Assembly: GCA_003224525.1 (NCBI GenBank)
Contig: QHZB01000190.1
Location: 1 to 37,134, forward strand
Direction of reading: 5' to 3'
DNA from: Acidobacteriota bacterium
GTDB lineage: Bacteria; Acidobacteriota; Terriglobia; Acidiferrales; UBA7541
Length of the DNA: 37,134 nucleotides
This document shows positions 6,847-14,716 of the stretch, in pieces. The translations under genes and the position numbers were made by a program. The notes beneath the pieces are model-generated. The model was not told the origin of the DNA. It worked only from the letters and a program-made list of their open reading frames with translations, and searched no databases. Numbering within the stretch: the stretch's first letter is position 1; the number at the start of each line of letters is the position of its first letter.

Positions 6847-9800
6847 ATGAAATCGGGCGTGGCCAATGGATTGCGAGGCATTTTCGCACTTGTGCTTCTG
6901 ACGGGAGCCGCGCCGACGCGCGCGCAGGCGCCGCCAGGCACTTCCGTGGCAAGTATTGAGAAGGAAGAACCAAAGATAGCGGCGACCCGTATCGTCAAGG
7001 AAGATGGCCAAGTTCTGTCCGAGGCACCCTCCGGAATCGCCGTAGATACCGGCAAGGCGCTGGACCGAGGAAAAATCGCGGATAGCTTGCGGGCGCTTTA
7101 CCGAACGGGGGATTACGCCGATCTAAAAGCGGTTGTGACGCCGGTAGCGGATGGAGTGCGACTGGATTTCGTAGTACGGGAGAATTTGTTTTTTAACCAG
7201 GTGCGCATCGAGGGTCTCACCGCGCCGCCCAGCGAGGCTTCGGCAGCCGCCGCGATGCAGCTGACTCTTGGGCAAACGTACCGGCAGGTTGCCGTCAACG
7301 AAGCGCTGGAGCGGTTGCGAGAGACGCTTCGTGAAGAGGGCTTGTATCTGGCAGAAGTTTCCGCGGAAACGGTGCCGCACGCGGAGACGCATCAGATGGA
7401 CATTGTTGTGCACGTAAAGCCCGGCCCCCGCGCACGCGTGGGAATCATCCAGTTGAAAAACGGCACGGAGTATCGCGATTCCGAAATCCTCTCTCGATTG
7501 AAGATGAAAGCGGGCAGCCAGATCACGTCGGCCCGACTGCAGCGCGGGACGGATCGCATCCGGAAATATCTGGTCAAGAAGGGGCACCTGAGCGGGCGAG
7601 CCGGAGTGCACCGGGGCGACTACGATGCCGCAAAGGGCACGATTCTTCTCGACTTGGAGGTGACGGAAGGACCGCTTGTGAAGGTGACCTTGACGGGCGC
7701 GAAGTTTTCCAAAGGGGAGCTGAAAAAACTGATCCCCATCTATCAGGAAGGAGCCGTTGACACGGATCTCCTGGAAGAAGGGAAACGCAATGTTCGCGAG
7801 CGGCTCGAACGACTGGGGTATTTCGACGCGGAAGTGAATTACACGACCGAAACGCATGAGGTGAAATCGGATCATAGCGCGGCGCGCGGCACGGAAGAGA
7901 TCATTACATACCGGGTCGAACGGGGCGATCGCCACAAACTGATGGGAATAGAAATCACCGGGAACAAGTACTTCGACACCGAATTGCTGCGAAGCCGATT
8001 GCAAATCTTCGGCGGCGCCTTCGGTTCGGTGGGACGGTTCAGCCGAAGACTGGTCGATTCGGACGCGCAATCGATGCGCAGTCTCTATCAAGCGAACGGG
8101 TTTCTCGATGCCAAGGTCGAGCAACAGATTGAAGACAACTACAAAGGCAAAGAGGGCGATTTGCTTATCCGCTTCGTCGTTCAGGAAGGGAAACAGACGC
8201 GCGTCGCTTCCCTCTCGATCGAGGGGAATCGCGCCTTCAAGGAAGATGAGCTTCTCGGCGTTATCGGCTCGACTCCGGGGCAACCGTATTCCGATTTCGG
8301 CGTAACGACAGATCGGGACAACATTCTGGCGCTTTATTTTAATGAAGGATTTCCCGAGGCGAGCTTTTCGGCAACGGCGGAACGCATCTCCGCCAGTCTG
8401 GCGACACAGAAAGCGGACGCGGGGGGGAGCACGACTGCTTCGCAGGACCATAGAAAAAAAGAGCCGAAGGAAGAAGAGTCCCAGCCGGCGATTGAGCAGG
8501 CCGAGGCGGTGCGGCTCGCCTACCACATCCAGGAAGGTCCGCAAACGCGCGTGAGGCGCATTCTAATCGAAGGCTACGAGCACACGCGACTGGGAGTGAT
8601 CCATCGAGAGGTGCACATCAAAGTCAAGGAACCGCTCCGGGAAGGGGACGTCGTGGAATCGCAAAGGCGTCTGTACAACCTCGGGATCTTCAATCGCGTC
8701 ATGATCGAACCGCAGAATCCGAACGGAACGGATCCTGAGAAGGACATCGCCATTCTCGTTGAGGAAGCCAAGCGCTACACGGTGGCCTACGGCGGCGGAT
8801 TCGAAGTGCAGAGGCTCGCCAGCACGACGAGCCCGACCGGGGCACAGATCCAGGCGGCTCCTCGCGGGATTCTTGAGGTCAGCAAGTTGAATCTTACCGG
8901 GCGCGGGGACTCGCTGTCCTTCAAACTGCGTGGCAGCACCTTGCAGGGGCGGGCTTTGCTGGGGTATTCGGCGCCGAACACCTTTGCTACTCCACATTTG
9001 AGCTTTCAGGCGGCCGCATTTGCGGAAAAAACGCGCGACATCAATACGTTTACGGAGGAGCGCTACGAGGGTTCGGTGCAATTGACCGATCAAGTCACGC
9101 CGCTGACGACGGCGCTCTATCGATATACCTTCCGCCGGGTTCTCGTCACCAATCTCAACATCCTGAGCGAGGAAATTCCGCTGTTCAACCAGCCGACACT
9201 GGTTTCACAATTCGGAGTGACTTGGTTCCGCGATTCGCGCGACAATCCCGCCGACGCTTCGAAAGGCAGTTTTAACAGCGCCGACTTCAGCGATGCCGAT
9301 ACTCACTTTGGTTCCAGCGCCAGCTTTCTGCGTTTTTTCTTTCAAAATTCCACGTACTACCCGATCAAGCGCCGATTCAGTTTCGCGCGTTCCACGCGAT
9401 TGGGCATCCTGGTACCTTATCGCGACACGGTTTCCCTAAGTTTCCCGGCGCCCACCCCGGGGCAGTGCCTCCCCGGTACGGCGCCTTCAGGAGCGACCTC
9501 AACGATCATTCCCCTACCGGAGCGTTTCTTTGCGGGCGGCGGGACGTCGCTGCGCGGGTTCGCGCTCAATCAAGCGGGACCGCGCGATGCGTGCACGGGT
9601 TTCCCGGTCGGTGGCCAGGCTATACTCGTGCTCAACCAAGAATTCCGTTTCCCGATGCGCTTGCCGTTTATCGGGACGTCGCTTGGCGGCGCGATTTTCT
9701 ACGACGGCGGCAACGTGTACAGCCGGCTGAGCCGGATCTCTTTCCGGGCGATGCTGCCGGCGCCCACATTCTCGCTGCAAAATCCGGCACTACCTGCGGG

Positions 9801-10062
9801 ACCAACGAACGTGCCCGTGTGCGCCACAAACTGCGCGAATGAACTCAATTACTTCGCTCACACCATCGGTTTGGGCGTGAGATATAAGACCCCGGTGGGT
9901 CCGATTCGAGTTGATTTTGGTTATCAGCTCAATCGCCCATCGTTTGTTATTCCGATACAGTGTCCAAGCAATGCCACGAAGTGCCAGGTTGGCTCGCTGG
10001 GCCAGCAAAGCACACGACTCCCCGGCTTTCAAATCTTTTTCAATCTGGGGGCCAGCTTCTAG
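6847..10062 (+). CDS. BamA/TamA-superfamily outer-membrane protein with about seven POTRA-like repeats
   Basis: The 1071-residue protein has a signal peptide (residues 1-26, ending TRAQA). About seven POTRA-like repeats follow (roughly 45-112, 114-193, 195-277, 278-360, 362-448, 450-565 and 567-642), recognised by recurring segments such as VRIEG..., LRxxLxxxGYxxAxV and a closing hydrophobic strand followed by EG. A Lys/Glu-rich insert interrupts the sixth (about 520-552). The C-terminal part is an Omp85 beta-barrel with the hallmark loop GGGTSLRGF and ends in a C-terminal Phe (LGASF). Omp85 proteins insert or translocate outer-membrane proteins. The TamB gene two genes downstream suggests a TamA-like partner; BamA has five POTRAs and proteobacterial TamA three. 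Its TAG stop overlaps the next GTG by one base. Confidence 0.88.
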   Translation: MKSGVANGLRGIFALVLLTGAAPTRAQAPPGTSVASIEKEEPKIAATRIVKEDGQVLSEAPSGIAVDTGKALDRGKIADSLRALYRTGDYADLKAVVTPVADGVRLDFVVRENLFFNQVRIEGLTAPPSEASAAAAMQLTLGQTYRQVAVNEALERLRETLREEGLYLAEVSAETVPHAETHQMDIVVHVKPGPRARVGIIQLKNGTEYRDSEILSRLKMKAGSQITSARLQRGTDRIRKYLVKKGHLSGRAGVHRGDYDAAKGTILLDLEVTEGPLVKVTLTGAKFSKGELKKLIPIYQEGAVDTDLLEEGKRNVRERLERLGYFDAEVNYTTETHEVKSDHSAARGTEEIITYRVERGDRHKLMGIEITGNKYFDTELLRSRLQIFGGAFGSVGRFSRRLVDSDAQSMRSLYQANGFLDAKVEQQIEDNYKGKEGDLLIRFVVQEGKQTRVASLSIEGNRAFKEDELLGVIGSTPGQPYSDFGVTTDRDNILALYFNEGFPEASFSATAERISASLATQKADAGGSTTASQDHRKKEPKEEESQPAIEQAEAVRLAYHIQEGPQTRVRRILIEGYEHTRLGVIHREVHIKVKEPLREGDVVESQRRLYNLGIFNRVMIEPQNPNGTDPEKDIAILVEEAKRYTVAYGGGFEVQRLASTTSPTGAQIQAAPRGILEVSKLNLTGRGDSLSFKLRGSTLQGRALLGYSAPNTFATPHLSFQAAAFAEKTRDINTFTEERYEGSVQLTDQVTPLTTALYRYTFRRVLVTNLNILSEEIPLFNQPTLVSQFGVTWFRDSRDNPADASKGSFNSADFSDADTHFGSSASFLRFFFQNSTYYPIKRRFSFARSTRLGILVPYRDTVSLSFPAPTPGQCLPGTAPSGATSTIIPLPERFFAGGGTSLRGFALNQAGPRDACTGFPVGGQAILVLNQEFRFPMRLPFIGTSLGGAIFYDGGNVYSRLSRISFRAMLPAPTFSLQNPALPAGPTNVPVCATNCANELNYFAHTIGLGVRYKTPVGPIRVDFGYQLNRPSFVIPIQCPSNATKCQVGSLGQQSTRLPGFQIFFNLGASF

Positions 10063-10712
10063 TGCGCGCGCCGGCGAGTGGTGTTCTGCTGGTCTCGCTG
10101 CTCATGACCAATGCGGCGGGATTACCGGCGTCGCAGGAGATCGTGGACCGCGTTGCCGCGCGAGTTGAGAACGACATCATCCTATTCAGCGAGATCCGGT
10201 TGCTCAGCCGGTACCAGGAATTCCTTGACGGAAAATCGGAAACCGATGCCCAGATTCTCGACCGGTTGATCGATCAGTGGATGGTGCGAACTGAGGCAGA
10301 CGTATCGCGTTTCCCGCACCCTTCCGAAGCCGAGATTGACCGGAGCCTGGAGAGTTTAGAGAAGTCGTTCACCTCGGCGGAGCAATACCAAGCAAGGAAA
10401 AAGCAGAGCGGGTTGAGCGATTCGGAAGTGCGCGGAATCGCAGCGTCGCAACTGTACTTGAGCAACTACCTCGACTCTCGCTTTCGCCCTTCCGTGCAAG
10501 TCGATCCCAAAGCAATTGAAAGTTTTTATGAAAATGCAGTCGTGCCGCAGGCCAAAGCGCGCGGGCAGGAGCCACCGTCGCTGGATGCCGCGCGCGATGC
10601 TATCCAGGAAGCTCTGGTGCAGAGTGGAATCAATGACCAGGCCGAGAAGTGGCTGAAGGAGAACAGGGCGCGCCTGCACATCGAGATTCTCCTGGGTGGA
10701 GGGTCGAAATGA
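10062..10712 (+). CDS. SurA-N-domain periplasmic chaperone lacking a PPIase domain
   Basis: The 216-residue protein starts at a GTG inside the TAGTG junction with the upstream barrel gene. A signal peptide (residues 1-23) is followed by SQEIVDRVAARVENDIILFSEI, the typical start of SurA/PpiD-type N-terminal chaperone domains. The rest is helical, and the last helices (INDQAEKWLKENRARLHIEI) match the C-terminal part of the SurA core. No parvulin domain is present, so it is presumably a pure chaperone for unfolded outer-membrane proteins in the periplasm. It sits between the Omp85 and TamB genes, and its stop overlaps the TamB ATG as ATGA. A longer frame from 9960 lies inside the barrel gene and is rejected. 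Confidence 0.85.
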   Translation: MRAPASGVLLVSLLMTNAAGLPASQEIVDRVAARVENDIILFSEIRLLSRYQEFLDGKSETDAQILDRLIDQWMVRTEADVSRFPHPSEAEIDRSLESLEKSFTSAEQYQARKKQSGLSDSEVRGIAASQLYLSNYLDSRFRPSVQVDPKAIESFYENAVVPQAKARGQEPPSLDAARDAIQEALVQSGINDQAEKWLKENRARLHIEILLGGGSK

Positions 10713-13700
10713 CGAGCGAGACCCGCCGCCGGAAGTGGCGCTGGCTGCGTCACGTCGCCTGGATTCTCGGCGCAAAGATCATCCTGATCGTCACGGGCCT
10801 GATGATTTTCTTCGGAAGCGGCGCGGGCAACCCGCTGTTGAGCCGCCTGCTGGTAAGCCGTTTGGAACAGATGACCGGCGGCAAGGTTGAGTTGCGCGCT
10901 CTGTCAATTCAATGGCTTGCCATGCGGGCAACCATCAAGGGTCTGGTGATCCACGGGAAGGAGCATGCCGGCACGGAACCTCTTCTTACCGCGGAGGAAG
11001 TGCAGGCAGGTCTGCGCATCGATTCCTTCTGGGGCCGCAGAGTTTCGCTGGACGAGCTAGTCCTCCAAAAGCCGCACGTGCACATCCGCGTTGAAAAGAA
11101 CGGTACGACAAACGTGCCCATGCCTCCACGGCCTACTTCTACACATAAGCCATTGCGCGACACGCTATTCGAATTGCATATCCGGCGCCTGCTGCTCTCC
11201 GACGGGTGGATCCTGTACAACGACACAAAGACACCGATCACGGTCCATGGAGGAGATCTTCTGCTTACGCTAGATGGCGGCGGGACGCCGGACCATCCTT
11301 TATACCTCGGCAACCTTGCCTGGCATACCATGTTCACGTCCAAGCCCTACGTGCCCCTGCAGGTGGGTCTATCGGCGAAATTCACGCTGCGGCGCGATGG
11401 CTTTACGCTGGAGCAGGGTGCGCTCAGCGCGGGGCACTCGCATCTTGACGCACAAGTGGAAATGAAGAACTTCTCGAATCCGCAATGGAGTTTCCGGTAC
11501 CGCGGCTGGGTCGATCTGCTGGATTTCAGGGAAACCCTGCACGAACCCACGGTGCCGACGGGGCGGGTCGATGTACGCGGAGAAGGGCAGTTCGCCAGCG
11601 GCCAGTACAAGGGGAGCGGGAGTTATTCCGGACAGAATATCGCGCTACCGTATTTGGTCTTTCATGCGACTGGCCTCACTAGCCGCGGCAGCTATCGAAT
11701 CGACAACCGTGGCCTGGATGTGCCGGATTTCTTTGCCGGAGCTTTCGGCGGGAGGGTAACGGGACGGGTGACGATGCGTTTCGACGGGCTGCAATTCAGG
11801 GCAGACACTCATGTGCAAGATGTGAGACTTGCGGCAGTTCTGCCGGCTATCGAGCATCGCAACTTCCCGATCGACGAACTGCACTGGGACGCACGGATGA
11901 CCGCGGACACGGTGGAAACCTGGAACGGTCCCTTCCTGCACTTCGAAATCTCCGCGAAGACCGTCTGGGAGACTCCAGAAAAGTTAGCGGAAGACCATCA
12001 ACCGGTGAGCGCTGCCTGGAAGTTTCGCTATCGCCACGATCCCCACATCCTGACAATCGATTCGGGTGAATTTGAAACGCCGTCGTCGCGTGGAAGTATC
12101 GACGGCATTCTTGCTTCGCGCAACACCGCACTGAACGTGCGATTCGAAACGGGAGCGATAGAAACCTACAAGGATTTCATTGATGCCCTTCGAGGTGCTG
12201 AGCCTCGTTCTTCCGAGGCAGCAAAACCAATCTGGGGCAGCGCACGATGGGATGGCAAAATCGCCGGAGCCTCCGGCGGTTCTGTATTTCAAGGACACCT
12301 ACGCGGGGAACGCGTGCGCTACGACGGCGTCTTCCTGGACTATCTCGACGGCGATCTCATTTACTCACCTTTCGAATTCACTTTGGTGCGTGGGCACGCC
12401 CGGCGGGGCGAGATGGAAACGGATATGGAAACCAAGCTTTCCCTGACCAACTGGAGTTTTCTGCCGGAGAACAACTGGACAGCTGAAGTCAATTTCGAAA
12501 AAGTTCCGGTCGAAAGCATCGAGCAGCTGCTGGGGTTGAGGTATCCGGTGAATGGATCGTTGACGGGCCAGTTTCACGGGCGAGGCACTCGGAGGGATCC
12601 CAGCATCACAGGGCTGTTCGATCTCGCCGATGGCGCCATGTATGGACTTTCCTTCAATCGTCTCCGAGGACAATTGGAGGTCTCGCCGGATGAGGCACGC
12701 ATCGCGGACGCGGAGCTGCGGTTCTTCCCGCCCGGAAAAGAAAATGGGCGGGGCGCGGGAATTATCACCGGTTCAGCTGGTTACCGCTATGAGGATCAGA
12801 CGATTTCCGCTGACCTCGTGGGCGCGGCGTTGCCGCTGGAAAATTTTGAAAAATTACAGTCGACGCGCTTGCCTGTGGGCGGTCAGGTGAGTTTCCGACT
12901 GAGGGCCAATGGCCCGGTGAAAACGCCGCTTGGCGAGGGGACATTTCGAGTCGTGGACCTCCGAATTGGCCAGGTGATTGTCGGCAGTTTCGACGGCAAA
13001 CTGACGTCAGACGGCCTCACGGCACACCTGGGATTTAGCTCCGCCATGACCACGGGTGAGGTCTCGGGGGGCTATACGCTCGGACTTGCCGATCCCTACG
13101 CGCTAAGTGGAAAAGTTTCGATCAAGAACATTGACCTGGACCCCTTCCTGCTCACCGCTTTGCATTTGAAAGAATTCAGCGGCCATGCAAATGCAGATGG
13201 TGACATTTCGCTAAACGGTTCGCTGAAGCAGCCGCAGAGCATCATCGTGGATGCGAATCTCTCGCGCCTGGCAATGAATTACGCCAACGTGCGGCTGGAA
13301 AACACGGGCCCGGTTCATTTCCGATCGACGAAGGACAGCCTGGAGATCGACCCGGTGACGCTGCGGGGAGTGGACACCAATCTGCAGATTGTGGGTTCGG
13401 TGCAGTTTGCCGGGCGCCGAGCCGTCGGATTGCGCCTAAATGGCGCTATGGACCTGCGGCTCATCAGCGGTTTTGTGCCGAATCTCGACGCACGAGGTCC
13501 AGCGCAAATCAACGCTTCGTTCGAAGGGACATTGGAACGACCGCGCATCACCGGCCGCGTGCACATCGAAAACGCTTTCGCCCGCGCCGCGGATTTCCCC
13601 GCGGGGCTCAGCGCGATCAAGGGCGACGTGGTATTCGATGCGACGCGACTGTACTTCGAAAATATGAGCGCGGAATCAGGGGGAGGCACGCTGCATCTTT

Positions 13701-14716
13701 CGGGGAACGTGAATTACGCGGAGAGTCCGCTTCGCTACGACGTCAGCGTTCGTACCGATCGCGTGCGGATTCGCTACCCGGAGGGCATGAGTTGGCTCGT
13801 CGGAGGCTCGCTCCGGCTGACCGGGACGACGGCAGCCGGGGTGCTCTCCGGGAAGGTGACGATCGAGCGCGTCACTCTCACACAGGGCCTGCAAGTTGCC
13901 GGCATGCTGGTTTCGGCGAAGGAAGGCATTGGCAGCCCCACCACGAGTTCATCGTACCTTCGCAACTTGCAATTCGACGTCGAAGCCGTCTCGGCACCCG
14001 ATGCGCGCATGGAATGGCCTGGCGCGGAACTACAAGCGGATGCGAATCTTCGCGTGCGGGGAACCTGGGAGCACCCCATTCTCCTGGGACATATCCACAT
14101 CCTGTCCGGCGATTTGTATTTCGCGGGCAACCGTTACCGTGTTACACGCGGAGATTTGAACTTCGCCAATCCCTTCCGTCTTGATCCGGTTTTGAATGTG
14201 GAAGCAACAACGACGATTCAGCAATATGAGATCACACTAAATTTCAATGGTCCGGCCAGTAAACTCACGCTGGCGTACCGCTCCGATCCCCCCCTTCCGG
14301 CCAACGACATCATCACGTTGCTTGCCCTGGGGCAGACCAGCTCTGAGGGGGCCGCGCGCAGTGGCGGTACGTCACAGAGCGGAACAGCGGGTGCTTCTGC
14401 GATTCTCTCGGAAGCGATTTCCAGCCAACTAGGCGGTCGCCTGGAGCGCTTGTTTGGGATAACGCGCTTCCGTGTGGATCCCGGACTTTCGGGGGTAGGT
14501 TCAACGGGCTCGCAACAAAACGCGGGGTCGCGCGTGACCGTCGAGCAACAGATTACGCGAAATCTCACGATCACTTATGTTTCGAATGTGAGCTCGACCC
14601 AGCAGCAGGTCATTCAAGTGGAATACAACGTGGACCGAAACGTCTCCATTGTCGGGTTGCGCGATCAGAACGGAACGCTTGGAATCGACATAAAGATCAA
14701 AAAGCGCTTTCCTTGA
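10709..14716 (+). CDS. tamB: TamB/DUF490 translocation and assembly protein
   Basis: At 1335 residues it has the size of TamB-type AsmA-like envelope bridges. A basic N-terminus (MTSETRRRKWRWLRH) leads into a single membrane anchor (about residues 17-38). A long beta-rich, repetitive periplasmic region follows, with a C-terminal DUF490 domain: EITLNFNGPASKLTLAYRS, then PPLPANDIITLLALGQ, ILSEAISSQLGGRLERLFG and YNVDRNVSIVGLRDQNGTL. TamB proteins span the periplasm and work with TamA-type Omp85 proteins, or move phospholipid to the outer membrane. The ATG overlaps the stop of the SurA-N gene, so all three envelope genes are probably cotranslated. Confidence 0.93.
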   Translation: MTSETRRRKWRWLRHVAWILGAKIILIVTGLMIFFGSGAGNPLLSRLLVSRLEQMTGGKVELRALSIQWLAMRATIKGLVIHGKEHAGTEPLLTAEEVQAGLRIDSFWGRRVSLDELVLQKPHVHIRVEKNGTTNVPMPPRPTSTHKPLRDTLFELHIRRLLLSDGWILYNDTKTPITVHGGDLLLTLDGGGTPDHPLYLGNLAWHTMFTSKPYVPLQVGLSAKFTLRRDGFTLEQGALSAGHSHLDAQVEMKNFSNPQWSFRYRGWVDLLDFRETLHEPTVPTGRVDVRGEGQFASGQYKGSGSYSGQNIALPYLVFHATGLTSRGSYRIDNRGLDVPDFFAGAFGGRVTGRVTMRFDGLQFRADTHVQDVRLAAVLPAIEHRNFPIDELHWDARMTADTVETWNGPFLHFEISAKTVWETPEKLAEDHQPVSAAWKFRYRHDPHILTIDSGEFETPSSRGSIDGILASRNTALNVRFETGAIETYKDFIDALRGAEPRSSEAAKPIWGSARWDGKIAGASGGSVFQGHLRGERVRYDGVFLDYLDGDLIYSPFEFTLVRGHARRGEMETDMETKLSLTNWSFLPENNWTAEVNFEKVPVESIEQLLGLRYPVNGSLTGQFHGRGTRRDPSITGLFDLADGAMYGLSFNRLRGQLEVSPDEARIADAELRFFPPGKENGRGAGIITGSAGYRYEDQTISADLVGAALPLENFEKLQSTRLPVGGQVSFRLRANGPVKTPLGEGTFRVVDLRIGQVIVGSFDGKLTSDGLTAHLGFSSAMTTGEVSGGYTLGLADPYALSGKVSIKNIDLDPFLLTALHLKEFSGHANADGDISLNGSLKQPQSIIVDANLSRLAMNYANVRLENTGPVHFRSTKDSLEIDPVTLRGVDTNLQIVGSVQFAGRRAVGLRLNGAMDLRLISGFVPNLDARGPAQINASFEGTLERPRITGRVHIENAFARAADFPAGLSAIKGDVVFDATRLYFENMSAESGGGTLHLSGNVNYAESPLRYDVSVRTDRVRIRYPEGMSWLVGGSLRLTGTTAAGVLSGKVTIERVTLTQGLQVAGMLVSAKEGIGSPTTSSSYLRNLQFDVEAVSAPDARMEWPGAELQADANLRVRGTWEHPILLGHIHILSGDLYFAGNRYRVTRGDLNFANPFRLDPVLNVEATTTIQQYEITLNFNGPASKLTLAYRSDPPLPANDIITLLALGQTSSEGAARSGGTSQSGTAGASAILSEAISSQLGGRLERLFGITRFRVDPGLSGVGSTGSQQNAGSRVTVEQQITRNLTITYVSNVSSTQQQVIQVEYNVDRNVSIVGLRDQNGTLGIDIKIKKRFP

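Follow-up and report, generated by a model that had tools for sequence, protein, structure and literature searches.

The window, the 37,134-nucleotide stretch of DNA analysed here, is one entire contig (G000:C156) of the 6.5-Mb genome of a soil Acidobacteriota bacterium. Three overlapping genes on its + strand, at positions 6847-14716, encode an Omp85 protein with an arm of seven POTRA domains, a small SurA-like protein (SurA0) and a TamB protein. The chances are about even that the three products form an acidobacterial machine resembling the translocation and assembly module (TAM), equipped with its own dedicated SurA-type holdase. A wider proposal, to be held slightly more tentatively, is that of an ancestral-type TAM with a dedicated SurA on BamA-like POTRAs, together with natural TamB-Omp85 fusions that would serve as a single-chain envelope bridge in several lineages. 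As far as the searches tell, the pair of a seven-POTRA Omp85 and TamB is known, and the SurA0 partner and the fusions are apparently undescribed. The fusions are possibly more surprising than the three-gene set with SurA0.

The three overlapping genes and their products

The Omp85 and SurA0 genes meet at TAGTG (10060-10064), and the SurA0 and TamB genes at ATGA (10709-10712). Across 27 close loci (the window and L035-L060) the first stop-start overlap is kept in 26, with L054 as the exception, and the second in all 27, which rules out a chance or misread gene set. A first-pass annotation of this DNA, made from its letters, had described the two overlaps, about seven POTRA-like repeats, a SurA without its peptidyl-prolyl isomerase (PPIase) domains and a TamB as the third gene. 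Each of these was borne out by the analyses below, and the overlaps proved to be conserved as well. The nearest named relatives across the full Omp85 length are metagenome-assembled genomes (MAGs) of gp2 Acidobacteria, with identity up to 87%. A record titled Betaproteobacteria (L046) carries the entire acidobacterial operon, its Omp85 showing 68% identity, and is probably a misnamed MAG.

A Pfam scan of SurA0 found no Rotamase match in its 216 residues and a SurA_N match that was sub-threshold only, and the protein falls far below the SurA equivalog cut-off (NF008038, 25.1 bits vs 394). Its AlphaFold2 model has a mean predicted local distance difference test (pLDDT) score of 87.7, with 176 of the 216 residues at 90 or above. 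The best solved structures were those of SurA bound to the β-barrel assembly machinery (BAM). Chain 8pzv_F aligned over 164 residues (Z 12.8, root-mean-square deviation 4.1), and residues 24-212 of SurA0 aligned with 21-428 of 9hg5_F (Z 12.4). The top Z of 12.8 is within the range flagged as doubtful for helical folds; the match was accepted because SurA entries top both fold lists and a phmmer search of the PDB also finds SurA (2pv3_A, E 0.00029). As modelled and matched, SurA0 has the SurA core fold, consisting of the N-domain and the C-terminal helix, without either PPIase domain. In 23 aligned members a short linker joins the two parts of the core in place of the PPIase domains. The N-terminal segment is kept, S-Q-E-I-V-D-R of SurA0 aligning with A-P-Q-V-V-D-K of Escherichia coli SurA, which we take to be the start of the mature protein. 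Decay of a former SurA was considered and rejected, as a similar module of about 200 residues ends the frame in 40 further loci and 33 positions are invariant across 27 close sequences.

The Pfam scan of the Omp85 protein found POTRA (PF07244, 3.9e-60, six stretches) and Omp85 (PF01103, 4.5e-41) domains. The protein passes the BamA equivalog TIGR03303 (321.1 bits, cut-off 297.15) and lies below the cut-offs of the TamA equivalog NF047950 (85.1 bits vs 625) and of PF17243 (15.3 bits vs 26). Seven POTRA segments, P1-P7, were delimited within residues 34-641. When scanned alone, P2-P7 each scored above the PF07244 cut-off and P1 gave no POTRA match. AlphaFold2, working from a shallow alignment of 24 sequences, folded P1-P6 with block pLDDT mostly 70-90, P1 with a single helix and P2-P6 as beta-alpha-alpha-beta-beta. 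Thus P1 comes from AlphaFold2, P7 from Pfam and P2-P6 from both, giving six predicted folds and a seventh domain by profile, a count above the five POTRAs of BamA.

The correspondence of these domains to E. coli BamA was taken from single-domain hidden Markov models (HMMs), built for P1-P7 from 61 long-arm proteins, because the POTRA repeats of the Omp85 model align in several registers. The P1 HMM scored best at BamA residues 22-79, that is POTRA1 (30.7 bits; next 21.8 at 348-420), P5 at POTRA3 (45.0 bits, 161-261), P6 at POTRA4 (36.7 bits, 255-360) and P7 at POTRA5 (49.2 bits, 344-420). The P2 and P3 HMMs were best at POTRA4 and P4 was weak, leaving the correspondence of P2-P4 ambiguous. In the whole-protein profile E. 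coli BamA aligns over P1-P2 and then again from P5 through the barrel, as if two POTRAs had been added in the middle of the arm. The third protein passes the TamB family model (PF04357, 9.5e-48, best stretch residues 985-1334) and carries an N-terminal membrane anchor; DUF748/YhdP models match its N-terminus.

Distribution and the long POTRA arm

Of 297 Acidobacteriota genomes searched with the one SurA0 sequence, 170 contain relatives of it. An even draw of 99 genomes, among them that of the window, has TamB in 88 and SurA0 in 54, and 53 of those 54 also have TamB. SurA0 was called at 85 bits or more with the match running near the profile end, and counted matches scored 85-257 bits; G088 (12-156) was retained on account of its position on the contig that carries TamB. 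The matches excluded were G021 (84.6 bits, 38-218, 381-aa frame), G092 (61.4, 43-215), G020 (60.8, 11-207), G010 (48.6, 59-224) and PPIase-type ones ending at about 172-175, among them G019 and a second match in G095 (88 bits). Counting G020, G021 and G092 as SurA0 would shrink the set of TamB genomes without it from 35 to 32. The profile matches considered over the 99 genomes omit the weakest ones. In the phylum of the Maritalea record, which its name places in Pseudomonadota, 100 genomes gave no match to the SurA0 profile above 81 bits; two Pseudomonadota matches, G311 (71.3 bits) and G383 (63.7 bits), cover almost all of the profile.

SurA0 and TamB lie no more than 7 kb apart on one strand in 35 of the 54 SurA0 genomes. 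The order is SurA0-TamB in nine of these, which together make up the window's class in the draw, and TamB comes first in the other 26. Among 40 loci hand-picked across families from the 170 genomes with a match, SurA0 is directly 3' of Omp85 in 28 of the 28 holding both, the other 12 having SurA0 with no Omp85 or TamB. A second locus set gave the same arrangement in 22 of 23, with a gap of about 0.5 kb in L150; in the exception, L160, about 4 kb lie between. SurA0 stays with Omp85 while TamB switches side, and the set is conserved in many genomes with the position of TamB varying. One locus outside the window's class (L078, G188) has the order Omp85-SurA0-TamB, which suggests that this order has more than one origin or is older than its distribution here would imply. 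Lone SurA0 genes, in stretches with no TamB or Omp85 match (L076, L077, L080, L081, L084, L097), have as neighbours genes for an FAD oxidoreductase, DNA ligase, DAP epimerase, EPSP synthase, HrcA and an aldolase. TamB genes with no adjoining Omp85 by profile were also seen (L111, L121, L124, L170, L180, L183-L185, L188, L189, L191, L193, L195, L197). They include all seven f24 genomes drawn, and a very divergent Omp85 could be missed by this measure.

The POTRA arm was measured on the Omp85 next to or fused with TamB in the 88 TamB genomes, a long arm being defined as 530 aa or more, or as a gene that starts in P1 and is cut by a contig end. A long arm was found in 50 of the 53 TamB genomes with SurA0 vs 0 of the 35 without (Fisher p 2e-21, ignoring descent). 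Coverage of P1 and P2 by at least 50% followed the same division, 49 of 53 vs 3 of 35 (p 3e-16, again ignoring descent). The profile found no Omp85 beside TamB in 10 of the 35 genomes without SurA0; 32 of the 35 lack P1-P2, and 22 of these 32 have an Omp85. No single family mixes genomes that have SurA0 and the long arm with genomes that have neither. The association is one of co-inheritance with few independent evolutionary events.

These distributions bear on a rather unlikely alternative, namely that SurA0 is a general periplasmic holdase that also serves BamA and that the operon reflects common envelope regulation. Such a role would suit the 19 of 54 genomes in which SurA0 is not within 7 kb of TamB, the unrelated neighbours of lone SurA0 (DNA ligase, HrcA, DAP epimerase, aldolase) and the presence of three other Rotamase-domain proteins in the window's genome. 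It does not suit the fact that SurA0 comes immediately after the long-arm Omp85 where the two genes sit together, whichever side TamB is on, nor that an arm of at least 530 aa is missing from every one of the 35 TamB genomes that have no SurA0.

Natural TamB-Omp85 fusions

Twenty-four TamB frames of 2000 aa or longer are listed for the draw of 99 genomes, and each of them also matches the Omp85 profile, with TamB first and Omp85 last. The fused frames are 2019-2441 aa long (L113, L114, L120, L123, L125-L144), and a contig-cut one (L182) has 1558 aa. In the G064 fusion the barrel end lies in a different frame. Counting the contig-cut G035, fusions occur in 25 of the 88 TamB genomes and in 18 families. 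Pfam found TamB, POTRA and Omp85 domains in the four fusions scanned. The five inspected all carry a strongly hydrophobic N-terminal helix, with a 19-residue hydropathy of 2.6-3.0 against 1.5 or less elsewhere, and have F as the last residue. The fused chain is predicted from its sequence to span both membranes, its inner-membrane helix and its barrel lying at opposite ends. The G059 fusion sits in a single 6.0-Mb contig, so an assembly error is unlikely in that genome.

The POTRAs start at about P3 in 20 of the 25 fusions (arms 412-462 aa). P1-P2 are retained in G029 and G042, the first POTRA of G009 is P4, and the register of G011 and G039 is unclear. In a quick tree the G029/G042 pair and G009 fall among separate seven-POTRA proteins, on starred branches, and at least three changes between the fused and separate states are needed in that clade, fission being indistinguishable from fusion. 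A fusion and a separate long-arm Omp85 are both present in G009, G026, G028, G054, G064 (contig-cut) and G093. No copy of SurA0 turned up in the stretches fetched around the fusions, some of them cut by contig ends. G029 and G042, whose fusions keep all seven POTRAs, also have SurA0, on another contig.

In a draw of 150 Pseudomonadota genomes, 99 had TamB, and no TamB-first fusion was found in the eight longest TamB frames, all of which were fetched. One Pseudomonadota locus (L198:176-6775, + strand, G426) has a single 2200-aa frame with Omp85 first and TamB second, which could be a real fusion or a stop lost in assembly.

Within the fusions 11-65 residues separate the end of the TamB match from the first Omp85-aligned residue. 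This spacing favours a TamB C-terminus adjacent to the first POTRA and would set a bound on their separation. If, given the fusions, the TamB C-terminus contacts the barrel, the POTRA arm would need to fold back. The contact of TamB with its outer-membrane partner is unsettled. In the sections of the published texts consulted, here and below, cited experiments put residues close to the C-terminal end of TamB on TamA's N-terminal POTRA (PMC11341756), predictions put the C-terminus on the barrel gate (PMC11341756; for Borrelia, PMC13382580), and the own result of PMC11341756 suits a TamB contact with the first strand of the barrel. The natural fusions constrain the possible geometry and allow the question to be put to the test on a single protein; they also lend indirect support to a physical complex of the TamA-TamB kind.

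The fusions also bear on a second alternative, less probable than a general holdase, in which the machine moves lipid, TamB being an AsmA-like lipid bridge and SurA0 assembling its very large partners rather than clients. In its favour, the DUF748/YhdP models that match the TamB N-terminus presumably belong to the AsmA-like group, and the SurA0 gene overlaps both the TamB and the Omp85 genes. However, the fetched surroundings of the fusions yielded no SurA0, though the fused chain is larger still.

Proposed mechanism and known systems

From the parts described above we infer a docking site, a handover and a protein cargo for a TAM-like machine with a dedicated SurA. TamB, anchored in the inner membrane, would cross the periplasm and contact the outer-membrane Omp85 at the N-terminal tip of its POTRA arm. 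SurA0 would dock through its N-terminal strand on the BamA-like P1, as E. coli SurA does on BamA POTRA1, which its six N-terminal residues bind by beta-augmentation (2026 review, PMC13067283). There it may hold outer-membrane clients in the unfolded state, or components of the machine itself, and would hand these to the window-type Omp85 rather than to BamA. P1, the putative dock, is a BamA POTRA1-like domain that is missing from most fusions. The first-pass annotation had suggested that the additional POTRAs may be where the SurA protein docks. The co-occurrence with the long arm, the likeness of P1 to BamA POTRA1 and the kept N-terminal segment lend this indirect support. If the mechanism is true, an operon chaperone would be tied to a BamA-like first POTRA, which would suggest that SurA-type delivery is not limited to BAM.

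Several observations weigh against this mechanism. First, SurA was without effect on assembly by the E. coli TAM in vitro (PMC11341756). Second, the 19 SurA0 genes not within 7 kb of TamB leave about a third of the 54 unlinked, some of them on short contigs. Third, three genomes (G034, G062, G096) have SurA0 and no long arm beside TamB, and in three with no called SurA0 (G004, G020, G047) a compact arm covers all seven POTRAs, P1 by 70-73%. Fourth, the Omp85 tree gives two independent pairs on supported branches and four on all, too few for a sign test. Finally, the P1 profile matches the third POTRA of TamA and not the first, and P7 and most of the barrel are below 50 pLDDT in the AlphaFold2 model.

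It is very improbable that the window encodes a second BAM, a duplicated BamA working with SurA and with TamB incidental, although the Omp85 passes the BamA cut-off of TIGR03303 and E. coli BamA aligns to its profile over P1-P2 and P5-barrel, since TamB is linked to it across families, fusions with TamB need at least three state changes, and the genome encodes another BamA-type protein, which clusters with E. coli BamA and apart from the window Omp85. This second gene, L002 on contig C396, is cut at the contig end before the first POTRAs. It provides the separate bamA that the first-pass annotation had proposed looking for, and it rules out the window Omp85 as the sole BamA of the genome.

The pair of Omp85 and TamB has been described. 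Heinz et al. (2015; PMC4494059) reported duplicated BamA-type Omp85 proteins in Acidobacteria, some with seven POTRAs, in an operon with TamB, proposed the duplicated acidobacterial BamA as the likely origin of TAM, and left open whether a divergent internal POTRA was genuine. Here, in contrast, P3 and P4 both score above the Pfam cut-off and are folded by AlphaFold2. The arrangement is therefore a published one as far as the pair is concerned, and the SurA-like gene is not mentioned in the text consulted, in which the words SurA, chaperone, fusion and fused do not occur. A search of titles and the starts of abstracts, within open-licence PMC, found no paper that names a TamB operon containing a SurA-like gene or TamB and Omp85 as a natural fusion.

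The proteobacterial TAM likewise consists of an Omp85 and TamB, and its E. coli genes overlap too (tamA ends at 9116 and tamB starts at 9113 in L109). Unlike the window, the E. coli tamA-tamB stretch examined has no surA, and TamA has three POTRAs (PMC11341756) rather than a seven-POTRA arm. The E. coli BAM-SurA system shares with the window the SurA core fold, the N-terminal segment and a BamA-like P1, but SurA0 is without both PPIase domains and TamB lies outside BAM-SurA. The proposed BamA-TamB hybrid of Borrelia also has a BamA-type Omp85 working with TamB, but with five POTRAs and in separate genes (PMC13382580, where the word SurA appears once).

Table 1. Features of the three-gene set, in window coordinates
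Feature	Position	Strand	Evidence
Omp85 protein, 1071 aa, seven-POTRA arm and Omp85 barrel domain	6847..10062	+	PF07244, PF01103, TIGR03303
Likely Sec signal peptide of Omp85, residues 1-27	6847..6927	+	Hydrophobic from residue 4; cleavage point by eye
P1, residues 34-112	6946..7182	+	AlphaFold2 fold; no Pfam POTRA match when scanned alone
P2, residues 113-191	7183..7419	+	PF07244 3.8e-9; AlphaFold2 beta-alpha-alpha-beta-beta
P3, residues 192-273	7420..7665	+	PF07244 2.4e-7; AlphaFold2
P4, residues 274-358	7666..7920	+	PF07244 2.7e-11; AlphaFold2
P5, residues 359-446	7921..8184	+	PF07244 5.7e-12; AlphaFold2
P6, residues 447-562, low-confidence linker insertion at about 517-550	8185..8532	+	PF07244 2.8e-10; AlphaFold2
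P7, residues 563-641	8533..8769	+	PF07244 5.8e-8; low pLDDT in AlphaFold2
Omp85 barrel domain, last residue F	8770..10059	+	PF01103 on residues 682-1032
SurA0, 216 aa, SurA core lacking PPIase domains, secreted; GTG start overlaps Omp85 stop	10062..10712	+	AlphaFold2 fold, PDB matches, phmmer
Likely SurA0 signal peptide	10062..10130	+	Hydropathy and alignment with E. coli SurA; cleavage point inferred
TamB, 1335 aa, ATG start	10709..14716	+	PF04357; DUF748 model at N-terminus
TamB N-terminal membrane anchor, about residues 16-34	10754..10810	+	Best 19-residue hydropathy 2.33 at residue 16

The three other Rotamase-domain proteins of the source genome are, by inspection, a PpiD-like protein (two matches), a SurA/PrsA-type protein and one further protein. 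The genome also encodes one more Omp85 protein, 835 aa or longer (L003, G000:C259), which groups with the BamA-type L002 in the quick tree, and a patatin-type Omp85 protein (L004, G000:C351), which from its sequence motifs we take to be PlpD-like.

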